Assembly (NCBI GenBank): GCA_022702545.1
Contig: JAHRBC010000002.1
Location: forward strand, 5,394,001-5,458,000
Direction of reading: 5' to 3'
DNA length: 64,000 nt
From: Phycomyces nitens
Lineage: Eukaryota; Mucoromycota; Mucoromycetes; Mucorales; Phycomycetaceae
The position numbers and the translations under genes are program-made. Position 1 is the first letter of the stretch; each line of letters starts with the position of its first letter. Below are positions 14,847 to 58,085 of the stretch, piece after piece. The notes beneath the pieces are model-generated. The model worked only from the letters and a program-made list of their open reading frames with translations, did no database searches and was not told the DNA's origin.

Positions 14847-15041
14847 TTTCTGAAAGTGACTTGTGGTCCGGCATCTAGTGCCTTTTCCCAGTTTACGGAA
14901 TAAAATGTTGTGTCCTGAAAAAGATATTTAAAGACTTTAAATAAAACTTTCTCTTCTTTTGTATACTCATCTCGTAAGAACTAATCATCTATTGTCTCCA
15001 TTAGTCATTTCACCGGAGATTACAACAAGATCACTTTTCTC

Positions 15042-17275
15042 ATGACCAACTTGAAATTACAAATACTTTATAGAACTCGCTTCATTATGAACCCTACCAA
15101 TAAAGAAACTATTTTTATTGACGGAAAGGAATACTATCCTGTTCAGCAAGCCCTCCCAACCCCACCTGCTAATGGCTACCATGACATGACCATGGCAATT
15201 GGAAAGATGCAAGAGTATGCCCTTGCTAATAACTTTAGCCTGACAATCAAAGACCGTAAACCAACTCGAGTTTACTTGAAATGTTCCAAGGGTGGACAGT
15301 ATAAGAACACCCGCAAAATCAAAGACGAAGACAGAGTAAGAATTCCATCGAGTGGAATGACTGGCTGCCCTTATCTCTTGAAGGTTTCCTACAAGAAGGG
15401 CATCAAAGGATATCTTCCTTTGAAAGCCACTCATGATATTGAGGCATATCACAATCATCCTCTTGATGATGAGTGTCTGGAATCGACACTGAAAGGCAGA
15501 TTGTCGAAGGTGACTGTGGACGATGCCAGAGATATTCTGAAGCTTATTGGAGCAAAAACAACTTCTCGTGAGATCCAAAAAGCAATTAACGATGACACCA
15601 CCCCTGGCCATAAGTTGTACATAAGTGACATTGACAACATGAAGGCTGCATTTGCTCGGGTTTCTGCTCCCGTTGTTGAGAATGCTGGAACAAAACTTGT
15701 GAATGCCATGGAAGCAAAGGGATATCAAGTTCGCTACGATGTGAGCAAGAACGGGTCCCTCGAGAGGATTATGTTTGCCCATCCAAAGATGCTGGAGAGA
15801 GCCCGTCGTTTCTCTGAGGTAATGGTTGTAGACGCAACTTACTCCACCAACAATCTCGGGATGCCGCTCATTTGTGTGGAAGGAATCCATAGTCTTGGAG
15901 GGGAGACCCTTAAATCTTTTCCTATTGCTTTTGCCTGGGTTTCGAATGAACAACAGGCTTCATATCTCTGGTTCCTCGAACAGGTCAAATCGCTTGTTTT
16001 TGAAGGCAACAAGTCAGCCACTCTGTTTGTAACAGATAAATGTGCTGCATTGATGAACTCTCTTGACATCGTGTTTCCGGAGAACATCAAGCTGTTATGC
16101 TACTGGCACATGCTGAACAGTGTTGAGAAGGCAGTCTCTGGGAGGTTCGGGTCTGTAAAGACCAAGGAAATGCTAATGGAGCATGTCAGCAGCATGATCC
16201 ATAGTACAACAAAAGAGGATTTTGACCTGGCGCATAAAAAGTTTGACAACATTTCTGCTGGCGTGGATATTGAAGATGGGAAAGACAGTGTTCCAGTGTC
16301 GGTATACTTTACCAACAGGTGGATCAAATGCCGTGAGAAGTGGGCGGGCTATCTGACATCTCAGTATATGCACTTTGGATGTACCACTACCCAACGAGTG
16401 GAAAGTGGCCATCAGGCTTTAAAGAAAGGCATATCCTCAATCTCTTCTCTTGAGTTGGCTTTTGAGAACATAGCCAAATATGTTGAGCGGTTGGAAATGG
16501 ATTTCCGGGCCACCAAAATAAGAGAAACCAACAGGATTGATGCTCTTGTTGGAAGAAACCGATTGCTGACCCAACTATTCATGAAAGTGAACAAGCGAGC
16601 CTTACTTGTGATCGATCAAGAAGTTCGCTTGCAGGAGAATAATGATGGAGATTGCCAATGCAAGGCAAAGATCCAGTATGGTCTACCCTGTCGACATACA
16701 TTGCCTGTTGGAAGAGATCTGCAAATCTCTGATATTCCAGAGAGATGGATTATAAATCCAGGTATGCTATATACCTCTTCCAATGGAATCAAGGCGACTA
16801 CTCCGGCTTTTGAAGAGGCAGAGCCATGGATGAAAGAAGTAATTCAACTGGAGAACCTTTTTCGTTCGTGCGAAGGTGGCCAACAAGTCCATGAGCTTTT
16901 GGAGAAGATCAGGTCTGTTGTGGCTGGCTACCACAATAAACAAAGCCACCCTCCTATCGAGCTCCAGGCCCCAGAAGACGTCAAGTTCCCCGGAAGGCGC
17001 AAGGGTAGCAGTCGCCCAAAGTACTTGCCAAAGGACTTTGGTCGCGCAATTTGGAGAAAGACCAGCATTTTGTCAGGACGGGTAAGATAGATACACACGC
17101 ATATATATATATCGAAATAAGAGATTATACTAACAGTTTTCTAAAATTATAGGCTGGCCTTAAGGCCATGATTAAGCTGGAGGCAAGGAAGAGGGCTCAT
17201 AAGAACGCAAAAGTTGCAAATGTGAAGAAAACACAAAAAAATATTAAAAAATTAAACAAGAGCCTCTCGACCCAG
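15042..17275 (+). CDS. MULE transposase (FAR1-like / DDE / SWIM)
   Basis: Exon 1 is 15042-17081 and exon 2 17153-17275. The intron 17082-17152 has a good ACTAAC branch site. The product to this point is 721 aa. The N-terminal 60-150 is a FAR1/WRKY-GCM1-like zinc domain (YLKCSKGG ... GCPYLLKV ... HNHPL). The DDE core shows MVVDATYSTNN (Asp 1), LFVTDKCAAL (Asp 2), the CYWH motif LLCYWHMLNSVEKAV, and TTQRVESGHQALK (Glu). The SWIM zinc finger is CQCKAKIQYGLPCRH near residue 550. These are the standard parts of Mutator-superfamily transposases. The next exon appears to be the OTU region, but it is one base out of frame, so the last part may be decayed. ATG 15087 is an alternative start. Confidence 0.8.
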
Positions 17276-24809: not shown

Positions 24810-27615
24810 ATGGCTGGCCACACCCATGTTCTGAACGATAGACACAGCCGTGTGATTCCATCCGATTATCTCGCCAACAGTACAATCGTCAGTCGAGCAA
24901 TGGCAGCAGCAGCAGCAAACAACCATCACAACACTCATGCCATTCGACGAGGCCGCCAGTCACATCGCTATGATGTCTCGGTCTTCTACTCAATGGCAGC
25001 CGAACAGGATATTGAAATCGAGGATGACCTTGCCTTGGGTAATCCCAATCCTAGTAGATAATCACATCTCATTCCCTTATTTTAGCTCAAAGAACCCTTC
25101 GAGACTTCAAGTCCAATATATCCGCTCAGTCGAAAAAGAATTTCATGCTCGAAAGAGACGTCCGTTTCCTTGATTCCCGGATCGCCCTACTTATCCAAAA
25201 CAGAATGGCCCTTGACGAAGTAAGCCACCTTATGCTGAGCGGCCTTGTTCTTACTCTCCCGGATAGCAAACCGAGGTAGTGTCTCATCTTGAGGACCATG
25301 ACGACGATACAGAAGGCCATTATCCAGACGACAGAAAGATGCAACAATATGGCAGTCTCTTTTTCCTCCTCCAATGCGAACCTCGCCACATGGCAACCCT
25401 CTGTCGGCTAGTCAGGCTGTCAGAGATCGATACTCTGCTCCAGACCGTCATGTTTACACTCTATGGAAACCAGTACGAGAGTAGAGAAGAGCATCTCCTA
25501 TTAACCATGTTTCAGGTATGTCTCTGTCAATTGAATGTTTTTCCTAACACTTTTTGGACAGAATGTATTGGCTGCCCAATTCGAAACCACTTCAGAGTTT
25601 GCCTCTCTCTTGAGAGCCAATACACCTGTTTCGAGGATGATGACCACATATACGCGTCGTGGACCTGGTCAGTCCTATCTAAAACTTGTTCTGTCGGACA
25701 GAATCAATCGCCTGATCGAACAGGTCGATTTGAACCTGCAGATAAACCCACTCAAGGTAAGCATATCGCAAATAAGATTAGACATTGTATAGTAAGGTAC
25801 TGGACATTGACAGCCATATGTGTTGCAACCTTGCAGGTCTATGAAGAGCTGATCTTGGCAGTCGAGCAAGGCAGAGAGGAAGATGAAGGTCTCGAACGGG
25901 GCATATCCGCAGAAAGTGCTGCAGCCCATCCTAGAGTCGAAGCCACCATCAAGCCCAGACTTGCCTTGTTGATGGAGACCGCAGAGTCCTTTCTGGATAC
26001 CATTCTAGGGTCCCTTGACAAGGTCCCGTATGGTATCCGTTGGATATGCAAACAGATCCGCTCTCTCACTCGTCGCAAGTATCCAGATGCTTCAGATTCT
26101 GCAATCGCTTCTCTTATTGGAGGCTTCTTCTTTTTGCGTTTCATTAACCCGGCCATCGTCACCCCTCAGGCCTATATGCTCGTCGACAATCTACCAAAGA
26201 ACCACCCAAGAACTGTACTCACCCTTATTGCAAAACTACTCCAGAACCTGGCAAATAAGCCAGCCTATGCCAAAGAAAGTTATATGATTCCAACCAACTC
26301 CTTTGTTGAAAAGAATAAGCAGCGAATCAACAGATTCCTCAACGATCTGTGTGAAGTGGGAGACTTTTATGAGAGTCTGGAAATGGACCAGTACATGACC
26401 CTGTCCAAGAAAGATATCATTATCAATATCACACCTAATGAGATCTATAATACCCTTGCACTATTGCAACAGCATATCGACATCCTTGCCCCCAAGCCAA
26501 TAGATCATCTTAGAGTCTTGGTTAGCGAGCTGGGAACAGCGCTTCCACAGGTGGCACGCCAGCACAACAAACCAATCGAGTTACCTCTGTTTAGTCGTTG
26601 GGAGATCCCAATCCAGGGCAAGTAGTTTTCCATTGATATCATCCTACCGTATTGACGTGTGCGTGTGTGTGTGTGTTTGGTAATTAGATTTGACTATGGC
26701 TCTAATGTCAGAAAACAATATTACCCAGAGTGATATTACGTACATGGAAACCAAGGCCATATTTGTCCAGATTATTCGTTCTCTGCCTTATCTATCACGG
26801 CCTCCTCTTCAACTCGAACAGATCCTAGAGACCGCCAACACCACAAAGGATCCTCTCCTTACCCGCAAGGGACTCAAAGTGACCGAAATGCTGGATGAGT
26901 TGGAGCGAATGGGCGTCATTCATCGTCAAGATGGCTACAAACTCCTTGTAGAAGAGATCACCCAAGAGCTGGCTCATCTAGGCGATCTCAAGGACAAGGT
27001 GATGGAAGAGATGGGCAGTCTTGAAGGCGTATACAAGACCATTCTGGACCACAATAATTATCTCAAAATCCAGCTGGAAAGCTACCGTGCCTATCTCCAG
27101 AATGTCCGTATGCTTAGTATCGGCAACACCAAGGAGGCTGTTCACCATGGACATGCACCGGCATTAGCAGAAAAGCAAGTCGGTCTGGGCGTGGCCCTGA
27201 CAACAGGCAAGACTGCCAAAAAGACAGTCAAGTCCCAACACCTTCAGGGACCCTTTAAGTTTTCTCATCAGCAACTAGAACGCGAAGGTGTGATTGCAGA
27301 GACAGAGGTAGCTGAGCACAGACGATGCAATATATACCTGTCAGTCCTGTCTCCACTTCCAGGCACCTTTATTATCTCTCTGCATTACAAAGGTAGAGAA
27401 AGACCAGTATTGGAAATCGACTTGAAATTAGACGACCTGCTGGAAAGAGTAAGTATATTACTGTGGATATATACATGTATTTAAAGATGTATCATTTTTG
27501 TGTTATACTTTAGCAACAAGACAATGTGCAACTATTGGATTTGGAATACATGAAATTGCATGTCACAAAGACATTACAACTATTGACAAAAACATTCATG
27601 ACAAAGAATAAGTAG
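24810..27615 (+). CDS. Ras GTPase-activating protein, gap1/sar1-IQGAP type
   Basis: Seven exons, all in frame: 24810-25038, 25086-25219, 25267-25515, 25562-25756, 25837-26617, 26688-27448, 27514-27615. The product is 816 aa. The RasGAP domain spans about 110-460, with [15 protein letters not shown] carrying the probable arginine finger (Arg 222) and [13 protein letters not shown] at about 368-380. The RasGAP C-terminal domain ends with [19 protein letters not shown]. No calponin-homology or IQ motifs are seen, so it resembles S. pombe gap1/sar1 rather than full IQGAPs, and the retained arginine suggests real GAP activity. The fifth intron (26618-26687) uses a GC donor (CAGG|GCAAGT) and contains a GT run; without it the frame would stop at 26625. 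Confidence 0.9.
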
Positions 27616-53075: not shown

Positions 53076-54642
53076 ATGGGAACCACTGAGACACAAGGCT
53101 ACAAGCCTACTACGTGGGCAGCGATCAAGAATGCCACTCTCCCAGCAGAAGGTGCAGGAAACCAGACCTTTGATAACCGTGTCTTGTTCGGTGCCTGGGT
53201 TGGTGTTCCAGCCCTCTTGAGCTATATCCTTGGCTTCTCTATCTTTGGCTTTGTTTTCCTCGCCATCCTCTTGGCCCTTCCTATCCTCGCTTCTACCATC
53301 TACCTCTTCTCCCGATTTGCCCCCCGTTACCGTAACCGTATTGCTCTCCCCGGAAAGCCCATTGAGACCTACATCACCATCCACGACCCTGAATTGAAGG
53401 CACAATACTTTGGCCGCAACAAGATCCCCATGGAGACTTTCTTCGAGGCTTACTTTGAAGGTAAGATCGACTTCAACGGTGATGCCCTTGAGATTATGGA
53501 ACTCCGTCACGACTGGGCCGCCTTCCAGTTCACCCTTGGTCAGTTCAAATTCTTCCTTCTCCAGTGGCTCCCCGAGACCTTCTGGCACTCGCGCGATCAG
53601 GATGAGACCCAGGTTCGCGAACACTACGACCGCGGCAATGACTTTTACGAGGGTTTCCTCGGTCCTCTGATGGTCTACACCTCTGGCATTATCTCTGATC
53701 CTACTAAGCGCGAGTCTCTTGAGCAGATGCAGGAGAACAAGATGCACTTGATTTGCAACAAGATTCAGTTGAAGGAAGGCGAGAAGCATCTCGATATTGG
53801 ATGTGGCTGGGGAACCTTGACTGCCTTTGCTTCCAAGAACTACAACAGTCAGTCTACCGGTGTCACCTTGGCCCGTAACCAGGTTGAGTTTGGTAACAAG
53901 CGCATTGAAGACTGGGGTGTCAAGGACAAGGCTCGTCTCCTCTGCATGGATTACCGTGATATTCCCGCCAACGATACTTACAACAAGATTACCTGCGTTG
54001 AGATGGCTGAGCACGTCGGTATCCGTCGTTTCCCTCAGTTCCTCCAAGAAGTCCGTGATTTGCTCGATGATGATGGTTTGTTCTACATGCAGGTTGCTGG
54101 TTTGAGAGCTACCTGGCAATACGAGGACTTTATCTGGTTAGTGTCTTGGTTTATAGTTTTATTGTCCGTGCGTCTATGGGCTTGTACTAATAGTCTTTCG
54201 CGTAATAGGGGTCTCTTTATGGCTAAATACATCTTCCCTGGTGCCGATGCTTCTACTCCTTTGTACTGGTACCTCCGCCAGTTGGAAATGGCTGGTTTCG
54301 AGATCCAAAACGTTGATACTGTCGGTGTCCACTACTCATCTACCCTCGAGAAGTGGTACCTCAACTGGGAACAGAACAAGGATGCCCTCCGTGGCAAGTA
54401 CGGTGACAAGATGTAAGTACATACCCATACTCTTGCAATATTGAATAGAATATTAATTATTATTGACATTTATTAGCTGCCGTATCTGGGAACTCTTCCT
54501 CTCTTGGTCTACCATCATCTCTCGCCAGGGCAGTGCCACTTGCTTCCAGATTGTTGCCAACAAGAACAGAAACTCCTTTGACCGTGCAGCTCTGATCAAC
54601 AACCGCACCAACCCTTCTGCCTGGACCTCCCAGCGCGGTTAA
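53076..54642 (+). CDS. Sphingolipid C9-methyltransferase (CFA-synthase-like)
   Basis: Exons 53076-54136, 54209-54412, 54477-54642; 476 aa. It methylates C9 of the sphingoid base of fungal glucosylceramides using SAM. The N-terminus has two membrane segments (about 38-78), and the enzyme is ER-bound. The SAM-binding motif I is LDIGCGWGTLTAF at 229-241. The REHYDRGNDFYEGFLG block and GVTLARNQVEF are typical of the cyclopropane-synthase superfamily, and the N-terminal membrane anchor marks the fungal sphingolipid branch. A C-terminal SAWTSQRG tail ends the protein. The first coding intron is 72 nt, a multiple of three and free of stops, so its retention would insert 24 mostly hydrophobic residues after Trp 354. 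Codons are C-rich, suggesting high expression. Confidence 0.9.
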
Positions 54643-56007
54643 ATATTTAATCAAGAAATGGGCTCAGTTATATTGATACCCGCACAAAAGAAACCTTTAA
54701 CAAAAACCAGCACTAGCTAATCCCTATTGTTTCGTACAAATATTTGCACTATTTTCTTTTTCTTTTTAAAAAAAACTTTGATGTTAATACATACTTTGCG
54801 TTTATAGATGCAATTTTACCTAGTAAATCATCTAAAGAGCTTGGAAACAGAAGAGAGAGAGGGTGGGGGTAGACAGGTCTTTTTATGTGTACATTTGATA
54901 ACAAGACGCTCTTTTGGCATTGTAACTGGTCATTAACAGCACAACTAAAAAATATTCTCAGATGTATCTTGCCAGTCTTTGGGTTGTATACCCACATGAA
55001 ACGAAGGTTGTGTAATGTGTTCCCATTCACAACAAGGCAAAGATACCAATCTTCTTGTTCAACAAAAAGACTGTTCCTCTGTACATGGCACTTTTTTTTT
55101 ATTACTTGCGGAAATGTGCACAAGGAATATTTGTGAGACTCTAGACGTTGGCTGTACAGCAACTAACAAGACACCATTGTATGACTACAGGGAATCGGCT
55201 ATTAGCGCCAAGAAGGCCAACACCGATTGAACTTCCGTAGTCAAGGGATTGTAAATTTGACTAAATTGAAAAAAAAGGGAGAAAATTGCTGGCAACATTG
55301 AAAAGAGGTGTTTTGTATGTAATCGACAATCGTTGGAGTCTTGGGGCTGGTATGCTGAGGATCTATTGAGGGGACTGTGGTGTAATGGGCCAATGGTTCG
55401 ATAGAATTTAATTGAGGGAGGGCAATATGCACAGGGATGATCACTATGTTCTGGCCAATATTCCTAAAATCCATGTTTCAAAATCAGTATTTGTTGCCAT
55501 TATAAAACAGAATGCAATATATTTGTAGAATCAACAGATAATTATATGTTTATATTTATATTTATATTGGCCGATTGTTTCCAAGCACTGAAAAGTAGCC
55601 TACAATTAGCTACAGGCATTCAATTAAAATATATTGATAGTGTTGTCGTCCCATTTTTAGATCAATTAGGATACATCTATAAAGACTTTTCAAGTTTTGG
55701 TAAACAAATAACATAAAAGGCTCAATGATAATAATAATAATAATTATAAGATTCTAAATGACCTTTGACGACCCAGCTAAAAATAGCAAACGCTTGATAT
55801 AAAGATAAAATAAAATTATATATGTGCTAATTAGCCACCATTCAAACAAGGTGATTTTCTTTTGCTATTTTGCTTTGATTGTGGGATTATATTGGCACTA
55901 TGCGGTCCACATGGCAACGTCACCCCAGGCGGGGATTGGAGATCAAATAAGCCCAAAATAGCTCTTTCACGAGAAATTCATCTTTTTTATTCTCTTCTTA
56001 CTTTATC
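54643..56007. other. Intergenic, no gene seen
   Basis: 1.36 kb, AT-rich; only short frames. A GCGGTCCACATGGCAACGTCACC stretch precedes the SH3 gene near 55900. Confidence 0.5.
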
Positions 56008-57151
56008 ATGACTGAACGAGATATTGGGCTGGCCAACTACATCCTCCAGTCGATTCATAAAGACCTCACCTTCCTCAGAGACCAGCATTATGTGTCTGCA
56101 CAGACCTACGAATCTGTAGTGGCCCAACTTCCACAGCATGTAGACCACAAACAGTCCTCTCCTTTGTCCACTCCGGCTTTTGTCAAACCTCCTCTTCCCA
56201 CCCGAAAGTCCACCACCAACCTCAACCGTGAGCCAGCAGCCCCTCCCCGCGAACAGCTCTTTCCCAAGCTGCCCGTCCGCCGTTCTGGTGACGACAGACA
56301 GCCATCACCACAGCCTCAGCATACTCCTCTGCCGCCTGTCCAGGCTGCTCAACCTACTCAACCTGCCCAGGCTCCCCAGCCTGCTCAACCTGCAGGTCTG
56401 GGCATTCACCCGCCAGTCTCGGCACCTCTTCCTCACCAAGCACTCGGCAGAGCAGTCCAGAGCTTTGTGACTCCTGTTGTAGAGACTCCTCCGCCTGCCT
56501 ATACAAGTGATCCTGGAGTGCTTGCTACTGCAGAAGCATTGTACGACTATAGCGGTGATGATCCTAGCACGGACCTGTCCTTCCGACAAGGCCAGATCAT
56601 TCAGGTTACAGAATATGGTATGATTGATAGACTCTTGATGGAACCGTACTCATCCTGATTATAGTTAATGATGATTGGTGGCGAGGCTCACTCAATGGAA
56701 AATCGGGTATCTTCCCTCAAAATCATGTCAAGAAAAGACCGTAAGGAAAACGTGCTAATAAAAGTACATGTGCTGAGTTTGACTTGTGACATCCCACTCT
56801 AGTAATACTCCCCCCACCAAGGCCAAGCGAATTGTCCCTCCACCAGCTACAAAGGCACCCATCCCACTGCCTACATCAAATGTTCCCTACCACTATCCTC
56901 CACCACCCACTGCCATTTACCACAACCCACCACCTGCCACTGCAATGTCCACAGCATATCCTGCGCCTGTTGCAGCCATGTCTTCAGCATATCCTGTGCC
57001 TGCTACAGTCCAACAGCAGCAGCCTCAAGCCCCAGAGGAAGAAAACAAGGTGTCCAACATGGCCAAGAAGTTTGGTGGACATGTAGCCACTGCTGCTACT
57101 TGGGGATTTGGTGCAACTCTTGGAGCAGAGGCTGCTCATGCAATCTTTTAA
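56008..57151 (+). CDS. LSB1/PIN3-like SH3-domain protein
   Basis: Exons 56008-56617, 56665-56740, 56803-57151; 344 aa. The N-terminal MTERDIGLANYILQSIHKDLTFL helix and the C-terminal end KKFGGHVATAATWGFGATLGAEAAHAIF match the design of yeast Lsb1 and Lsb2/Pin3, whose C-termini read similarly. The SH3 domain is at about 173-226 (ALYDYSGDDPSTDLSFRQGQIIQV ... NDDWWRGSLNGKSGIFPQNHV). Pro/Gln-rich linkers flank it (PQPAQP and PPPPTAIYHNPPP). In yeast these proteins bind Las17/WASP and tune actin patches; the same role here is inferred. The SH3 domain is split by the first intron. Confidence 0.85.
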
Positions 57152-57433: not shown

Positions 57434-58085
57434 ATGTCGACTGCCATCCCCGTCAACATTCGCTCCAACAGCCTCAATGCTCCTTTGCATTCAGACTACT
57501 CTACCACTCCTCATGGAACAATCTACAGCTCCACTCCAGGAGGTAAGATGTTCACTTCACTCCTGGCTACTTGTGTACAAGTATATATATACACACACAC
57601 CAAAAAAAAAGATAAATAGCGATAGACAGAGAGATACAGACAGAGATCAAACTCTGGTCTTTTTTGTTTTCACTCCGAGAGAATTGGGACTGGAGTGCTT
57701 AGTCTGGGTGGACTGACTGAAAGAGTCGACTGATTAGGCACTCGTGTGATCTATGATCGCACTACCCTCCTCGCTCTGTCTAGCAGCCAGCTTGCCCAGA
57801 CACCTCCTACCGGCATGGCCTATGTCGCAGGCGTGACACGTTCCAGCCATGCCGAGATTCCCACTGCTCATGGTACTCGCAAGACCACCGAGCAGAAGAA
57901 GGTCGAGGAAGAGAAGAAAAAGACCTGTAAGTATGAGCTTAACATTTGTGAATTCAAGTATTCAAAATATATACATATACATATATACATATATATATAC
58001 ATGTATGCATAATCAATTATTAGATAACCCATTTGCTGTTCTCAACAACGATGGCGATGATGATATGTTTGACATGGAAGAGTAA
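57434..58085 (+). CDS. Metazoan-type eIF4E-binding protein (4E-BP)
   Basis: Exons 57434-57542, 57738-57926, 58024-58085; 119 aa (human 4E-BP1 is 118). It binds eIF4E and blocks eIF4G, repressing cap-dependent translation under TOR control. Visible marks, in order: DYSTTPHGTIYSSTPGGTR at 21-39 with Thr-Pro sites T25 and T34, spaced nine apart like human T37/T46. The canonical eIF4E motif YDRTTLL (Y-x4-L-phi) is at 42-48, exactly eight residues after T34 as in human. QTPP follows with T58, 16 after the motif Tyr, like human T70. A second-contact-like GVTRSS loop comes next, and a C-terminal FDMEE at 115-119 matches the TOS motif FEMDI. The human S65-Pro site is Ser-Gln here. A basic Lys/Glu helix precedes the end. 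Yeast Caf20/Eap1 share only the Y-x4-L-phi motif. Confidence 0.92.

Follow-up and report, generated by a model that had tools for sequence, protein, structure and literature searches.

Sequence evidence for an animal-type 4E-BP, possibly under TORC1 control, in the mucoralean fungus Phycomyces nitens

The question raised by a short three-exon gene of the fungus Phycomyces nitens (Mucoromycota; Mucorales) is whether a growth switch, the TOR-controlled 4E-BP, may be older than animals. In animals, 4E-BPs restrain protein synthesis as long as the growth kinase TOR has not released them. The gene lies in a window of 64,000 nucleotides (assembly GCA_022702545.1, contig JAHRBC010000002.1, positions 5,394,001 to 5,458,000 of the forward strand), and a first-pass annotation of this stretch had proposed that it encodes a fungal 4E-BP with the full animal-type motif set; a true TOR-4E-BP axis here would, in its view, predate animals and have been lost in Dikarya. 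4E-BPs are expected to be disordered proteins. In the following the order and spacing of short motifs are considered together with family profiles, gene structure and phylogenetic distribution.

The predicted splicing of the three exons at GT-AG introns (Table 1) yields a product of 119 aa that closes with FDMEE followed by the stop, in agreement with the first reading of the locus; of the four acceptor combinations compared, it is the only one free of internal stops, and the NCBI protein model of Phycomyces blakesleeanus is identical to it. The intron boundaries are found again in relatives: P0007, a Mucorales sequence with intron read-through, breaks at STPGG/GTRVIYDR, which is the boundary of intron 1, and P0013, P0016, P0024, P0033, P0044 and P0065 continue beyond the second donor with KKKTCK, which is also the reading of the window at that point. 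Because the NCBI model is identical and the boundaries are shared, a gene-model artefact appears unlikely. Among the animal sequences fetched there was no read-through that would allow the intron positions to be compared with human. A six-frame search of the 48.98-Mb genome (11 contigs) locates the family profile PF05456 at a single locus, as two exon matches, and the same search found it in none of 14 control genomes.

Table 1. Features of the predicted 4E-BP gene and its product; positions refer to the window.
Feature	Position	Strand	Remarks
Exon 1	57434..57542	+	N-terminal segment with STAIP, YSTTPHGT and STPGG; spliced frame equals NCBI protein
Intron 1	57543..57737	+	GT-AG, phase 1, 195 bases; read-through sequence P0007 has the same boundary
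Exon 2	57738..57926	+	Putative eIF4E-binding helix, TPP site and VAGVT; the K/E-rich module begins here; PF05456 exon match
Intron 2	57927..58023	+	GT-AG, phase 1, 97 bases; KKKTCK read-through in six Mucorales sequences
Exon 3	58024..58085	+	NPF motif, acidic stretch, TOS-like FDMEE and stop
Codon T25	57506..57508	+	Equivalent of human T37, within TPHGT
Codon T34	57533..57535	+	Equivalent of human T46, within TPGGT
YDRTTLL	57752..57772	+	Putative canonical eIF4E-binding motif; Y42, D43, R44, T46, L47 and L48 invariant in a 13-row alignment
Codon T58	57800..57802	+	Equivalent of human T70, within QTPP
VAGVT	57824..57838	+	Equivalent of human IPGVT, putative second eIF4E-binding motif; role as given in passages of PMC7305185 and PMC8558276
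Mucorales-only module	57878..58046	+	Residues 84-107 (RKTTEQKKVEEEKKKTYNPFAVLN); split by intron 2
FDMEE	58068..58082	+	TOS-like C-terminus

Judged by its sequence, the product genuinely belongs, as a fungal member, to the 4E-BP family of animals. The search with Pfam eIF_4EBP (PF05456) that had been proposed as a check returned a significant match (E 8.4e-25, 87.4 bits against a cut-off of 24), in which residues 2-117 cover profile positions 11-115; the best relative in the PDB is human 4E-BP1 (E 8e-15), and NCBIfam, a database built for bacteria and archaea, yielded no family for the product. Residues 34-82 of human 4E-BP1 align without gaps to residues 22-70 of the product, over 49 residues and with an offset of 12. 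At the 25 core positions compared, Y34, T37, P38, G40, T41, T46-T50, Y54-R56, L59, S65, T70, P71, G80, V81 and T82 are identical, and the differences, from human to Phycomyces, are G39 to H, M60 to L, P66 to Q, K69 to Q and P79 to A. The spacings T25-T34 (9), T34-Y42 (8) and Y42-T58 (16) are the same as in human T37-T46-Y54-T70, so the values of the first-pass annotation hold in the gap-free alignment, although they stop at T58 and the distance to the TOS-like end falls outside them; in 200,000 shuffles of the protein the spaced core never occurred by chance.

In particular, the core contains a putative eIF4E-binding motif of the YxxxxL-hydrophobic type (Y42, L47, L48), a candidate for the second eIF4E motif in the form of AGVT at human positions 79-82, in which V81 is identical and P79 is an alanine, and the T70-P site as T58-P59. 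The turns at T37 and T46 are both present, as TPHGT and TPGGT, and retain the glycine at i+3, while at i+2 the first turn has a histidine in place of glycine. In the passages of PMC7305185 that concern these turns, the i+3 glycine of TPGGT is the defining feature of the phospho-hairpin and a valine at i+2 of both turns (G39V/G48V) undoes the phospho-folded state.

The proposed "full animal-type motif set" is overstated, because this species has neither S65-P nor the arginine of RAIP; what stands are the T37/T46 turns, YDRTTLL, QTPP and a TOS-like end, the last with an acidic final residue. Human S65-P, a regulatory site of the animal members that the Pfam score does not require, corresponds to S53-Q54, and the N-terminal RAIP is TAIP. 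With metazoan 4E-BP1/2/3 and Drosophila Thor the protein shares the order and spacing of the core, the TPxGT turns, YxRxxL-hydrophobic, TPP, GVT and a TOS-like motif at the C-terminus; in addition to the two missing elements it differs from them in the histidine at G39, in the acidic fifth TOS residue and in a K/E-rich NPF module added before the tail. FDMEE agrees with the pattern F-X-hydrophobic-acid-hydrophobic except at this fifth residue. PRAS40 differs from the Phycomyces protein in that it is not known to bind eIF4E and carries its TOS motif internally. Its TOS variant, FVMDE, nevertheless ends in an acidic residue as FDMEE does (passages of PMC6325617), and the consensus itself is given as F-X-hydrophobic-(E/D)-hydrophobic in those of PMC11348030.

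The distribution of these elements was followed in 145 fetched proteins. A search with the single sequence yielded 13 of 17 candidates and a Mucorales profile 65 of 7,991 candidates scored; for a wider profile the figure was 1,695 of 6,438, and the listing covers the best 120 of these. Organism names are those given by the sources and the grouping into orders is our own; the shortened names Syncepha, Thamnoce and Piptocep were read as Syncephalis, Thamnocephalis and Piptocephalis, and Ben, Mortiere and Linneman as Mortierellomycotina. The motif tally covers 94 of the 145 sequences, 60 from named fungi and 34 from named animals. The other 51 comprise 11 Mucorales-like sequences (fragments, read-throughs or nameless), two labelled Anthurium, 12 nameless ones first grouped as fungal-like, among which P0052, P0057 and P0058 look animal-like, 24 nameless animal-like ones and two from EukProt.

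Among the matches listed, the eIF_4EBP family is represented in six groups of early-diverging fungi, and most of these sequences have a TOS-like end. Such an end is seen in 52 of the 60 named fungal sequences, which carry T37-P in 56 cases, T46-P in 57, T70-P in 58 and YxxxxL-hydrophobic in 59; in the 34 named animal sequences the TOS-like end is found in 31 and S65-P in 33. The 4E-BPs of Entomortierella, Basidiobolus, Conidiobolus, Gigaspora and others belong to the same Pfam family and have the same core, and differ from that of Phycomyces in keeping S65-P (46/46 other named fungal sequences versus 0/14 named Mucorales), often [RK]xIP (39/46 versus 0/14, and 28/34 in named animals) and mostly an FDMDME or FDMEME end. 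Eight of the 60 fungal sequences are without a TOS-like end, namely P0011, P0012 and P0045 of the Absidia clade and P0008, P0025, P0034, P0081 and P0088, which look like incomplete or misread models, P0034 and P0081 being marked as partial. No names from Dikarya, chytrids, Mucor or Rhizopus are present among the matches listed, which come from a limited pool of candidates (for the wider profile the best 120 of 1,695) and in which P0017, P0030 and P0055 have no readable organism. The missing names of Mucor and Rhizopus, when other Mucorales are plentiful, may reflect a loss in the best-studied genera.

The genome also encodes the putative partners of such a protein. Raptor_N (PF14538) gives one match (E 1.7e-67), and a 641-residue piece matches human Raptor with E 5.5e-256; the FRB domain of TOR likewise gives one match (E 9.9e-46). 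Plant-type RAPTOR and yeast Kog1 match the Phycomyces Raptor as well, and therefore this protein permits TOS docking and does not prove it. The residues that line the TOS pocket of Raptor were not found in the TOS/Raptor literature searched; R305 and Y475, two residues of this pocket, both look conserved in the Raptor alignment. As to a second TOS substrate, S6K, none of nine loci of the AGC-kinase C-terminal family has a TOS-like pattern, although the N-termini may fall outside these loci. For eIF4E there are 13 exon matches, which we grouped into five loci; a protein assembled from exons has the dorsal motifs HPL and TVEDFW, as have the exons of a second locus. The contacts of eIF4E, according to passages of PMC1260017, are H37, P38, V69, W73, L131, E132 and L135; by eye, all are retained except E132, the equivalent of which is a histidine. 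I63 and I79, residues of the lateral pocket in the corresponding part of PMC8558276, look retained in Phycomyces as well.

Taken together, these data lead us to favour, with good confidence, the reading that the gene encodes a true animal-type 4E-BP, which would be released from eIF4E by TORC1 and most likely goes back to an ancestor shared by animals and fungi. In its unphosphorylated form the protein would grip eIF4E through YDRTTLL and VAGVT and exclude eIF4G; nutrients would activate TORC1, whose Raptor subunit would dock the FDMEE tail; T25 and T34 would then be phosphorylated and the TPxGT hairpins fold over the helix, so that translation is released. The repressor mechanism is likely and the control by TORC1 plausible. 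Against this reading speak the absence of S65-P and the change of RAIP to TAIP, the last residue of FDMEE, off consensus though matched by that of PRAS40, the histidine at i+2 of the first turn, a position where valine is disruptive, the histidine in place of E132 in eIF4E and a Raptor that is not discriminating.

The strongest competitor, which we regard as rather unlikely, also sees in the protein a true repressor of eIF4E, but one in which a different proline-directed kinase acts on the TP sites, FDMEE being simply an acidic end and TORC1 control being absent from Mucorales. TP sites suit many kinases, and the loss of S65-P and of the RAIP arginine in Mucorales, together with the acidic fifth TOS residue, fits this possibility; on the other hand, TOS positions 1, 3 and 4 (F, hydrophobic, acid) are retained in 10 of the 14 named Mucorales sequences, and shuffling the protein 200,000 times produced a C-terminal F-x-hydrophobic-acid in 220 cases. 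Three of the four named Mucorales sequences without a TOS-like tail are those of Absidia repens, Absidia glauca and Chlamydoabsidia padenii (P0011, P0012, P0045), which form one starred clade and also lack the T37 and T46 sites: in all three the equivalents of T37 and T46 and the tail are lost, the tails stopping before the TOS-like motif, and in two of three T70 is lost, while YDRTTLLAL is kept in all. Such a joint loss, with the helix retained, is expected if the tail and the sites serve one kinase, and gives indirect support to a TORC1 input; an eIF4E helix that persists without the tail can be equally claimed for the other kinase. The loss concerns one clade and gene models, in which an alternative splice site could hide T46 but not T37, a substitution. 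Moreover, in P0014 (Cunninghamella echinulata) the T37 equivalent is an alanine (YSTAP), yet T46 and the TOS-like tail are retained, which counts for the other kinase and against TORC1. P0011, P0012 and P0045 are possible constitutive 4E-BPs.

The same comparison draws attention to the module at residues 84-107, which is K/E-rich and closes with TYNPFAVLN. Its NPF pattern is found in 13 of the 14 named Mucorales sequences versus none of the 46 other named fungal ones. NPF resembles the ligands of EH domains and the N-terminus of Stm1; a search of the genome with PF09598, relevant to a Stm1-like reading, gave no match, as was the case for the controls. Relative to Halteromyces, the Absidia clade keeps 11-15 of 38-39 positions in the N-terminal segment, 27-30/34 in the eIF4E core, 22-24/24 in the NPF module and 3/11 in the tail, the corresponding values for P0014 being 26/38, 28/34, 21/24 and 8/11. 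The module is thus the best-kept part of the protein in the Absidia clade, surviving the loss of the TP sites and of the TOS-like tail, and therefore it probably has a binding partner.

A further possibility, to which we give somewhat less credit than to another kinase, is that the protein binds a different eIF4E paralogue and acts on particular mRNAs instead of being a general TORC1-controlled switch. The 13 exon matches in five loci leave room for it, Mucoromycota have 1-7 eIF4E paralogues (in a passage of PMC11791286) and in yeast particular sets of mRNAs are enriched by Caf20 and Eap1 (in a passage of PMC8242001); against it, two loci encode HPL/TVEDFW proteins and the protein has a binding motif of general type. 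The animal-type protein released by TORC1 remains the preferred reading.

The tree was built from the conserved core of 76 sequences hand-picked from the 145, with 74 columns, few for so many sequences, and a midpoint root only. A branch at 98/86 separates 51 fungal sequences from 25 on the animal side (23 from animals and the EukProt sequences P0055 and P0100), and no fungal sequence falls inside the animal group. Mucorales, Glomeromycotina, Mortierellomycotina and Entomophthorales each form one side of a starred branch, and Basidiobolus is set apart in this way at 95/76; Zoopagales do not form a single group, because the long-branched P0092 (name shortened to Piptocep) adjoins the animal side at 87/78. 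The tree fits vertical descent from a common ancestor, with no clear sign of transfer from animals. Horizontal transfer from animals or contamination, for which one could invoke the high similarity of the core to animals, the position of P0092 and the existence of mislabelled records, evident since two family sequences bear the plant name Anthurium, is judged highly improbable from the tree and the contig context, as the gene has two introns and sits within an 8.9-Mb contig, starred branches set off four fungal groups and the animal group is free of the fungal sequences of the tree. The two sequences in question (P0038, P0084), labelled Anthurium amnicola, resemble those of arbuscular mycorrhizal fungi, a probable contamination of the record. 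P0055 has an exact RAIP and an FEMD end, branches beside animals and may be a non-animal relative of them.

The best reading of the distribution is a pre-animal origin. Of the TOR-4E-BP axis considered in the first-pass annotation, it is the family that finds support, from its membership, its presence in six groups and the split between fungi and animals in the tree. On balance, and by a modest preference, we propose that the whole TORC1-Raptor-TOS-4E-BP switch was already present when animals and fungi last had an ancestor in common, that it disappeared in Dikarya or before them, with unrelated eIF4E binders such as Caf20 as replacements, and that it is being dismantled stepwise in Mucorales, S65-P going first and then, in Absidia, the TP turns and the TOS tail together, which would leave a constitutive eIF4E binder, with the NPF module as an addition. 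Should the function of these genes be the one that their sequence indicates, the classical link from TOR to translation is older than animals and poorly represented by yeast; Phycomyces, Mortierellomycotina or Basidiobolus would then be organisms for a direct test.

Caf20/p20 and Eap1 of Saccharomyces resemble the Phycomyces protein in the short YxxxxL-hydrophobic eIF4E motif and in competition with eIF4G, predicted for the latter; beyond this they show no clear homology to the 4E-BPs of Metazoa (PMC8242001 and PMC7139794, passages); the Caf20 motif lies at residues 4-13 (PMC8242001, same passages), that of Phycomyces at 42-48, inside the PF05456 match. The extreme N-terminal motif of Caf20 and the lack of other 4E-BP homology that marks Caf20/Eap1 were not found in the Phycomyces protein. 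In the part of PMC7139794 (2020) concerned, p20 and metazoan 4E-BPs are a case of evolutionary convergence. PMC2997006 (2010) annotates Tor pathways, Phycomyces included, and in the text available names 4E-BP only twice, in the reference list; a term search of the main text of PMC8401276 (2021, arbuscular mycorrhizal fungi) and PMC11836306 (2025, TORC1 outside Dikarya) returned neither 4E-BP nor eIF4E, and in the portion available of PMC11791286 (2024, fungal eIF4Es) the only mention of 4E-BP is in a reference title. Among the best-ranked literature matches on fungal 4E-BPs/TOR, TOS and eIF4E contacts, mostly the main texts of non-subscription articles, there was no report of a fungal eIF_4EBP member. 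Databases already carry the family name, so novelty does not lie in the record itself, but the literature found seems not to discuss what it means.

The window contains other recognizable features, all on the forward strand. A 701-aa open frame at 14985-17087 has a MULE transposase domain (PF10551, E 7e-19); RasGAP and RasGAP_C lie in two adjacent open frames at 25267-27481, probably one IQGAP-like gene with an intron; and a methyltransferase similar to cyclopropane-fatty-acid synthase is encoded at 53076-54413 (PF02353, E 1.8e-55). An SH3 protein with a proline-rich tail at 55951-57151, probably one spliced gene, is directly upstream of the 4E-BP gene, its last frame ending 282 bases before the 4E-BP start.
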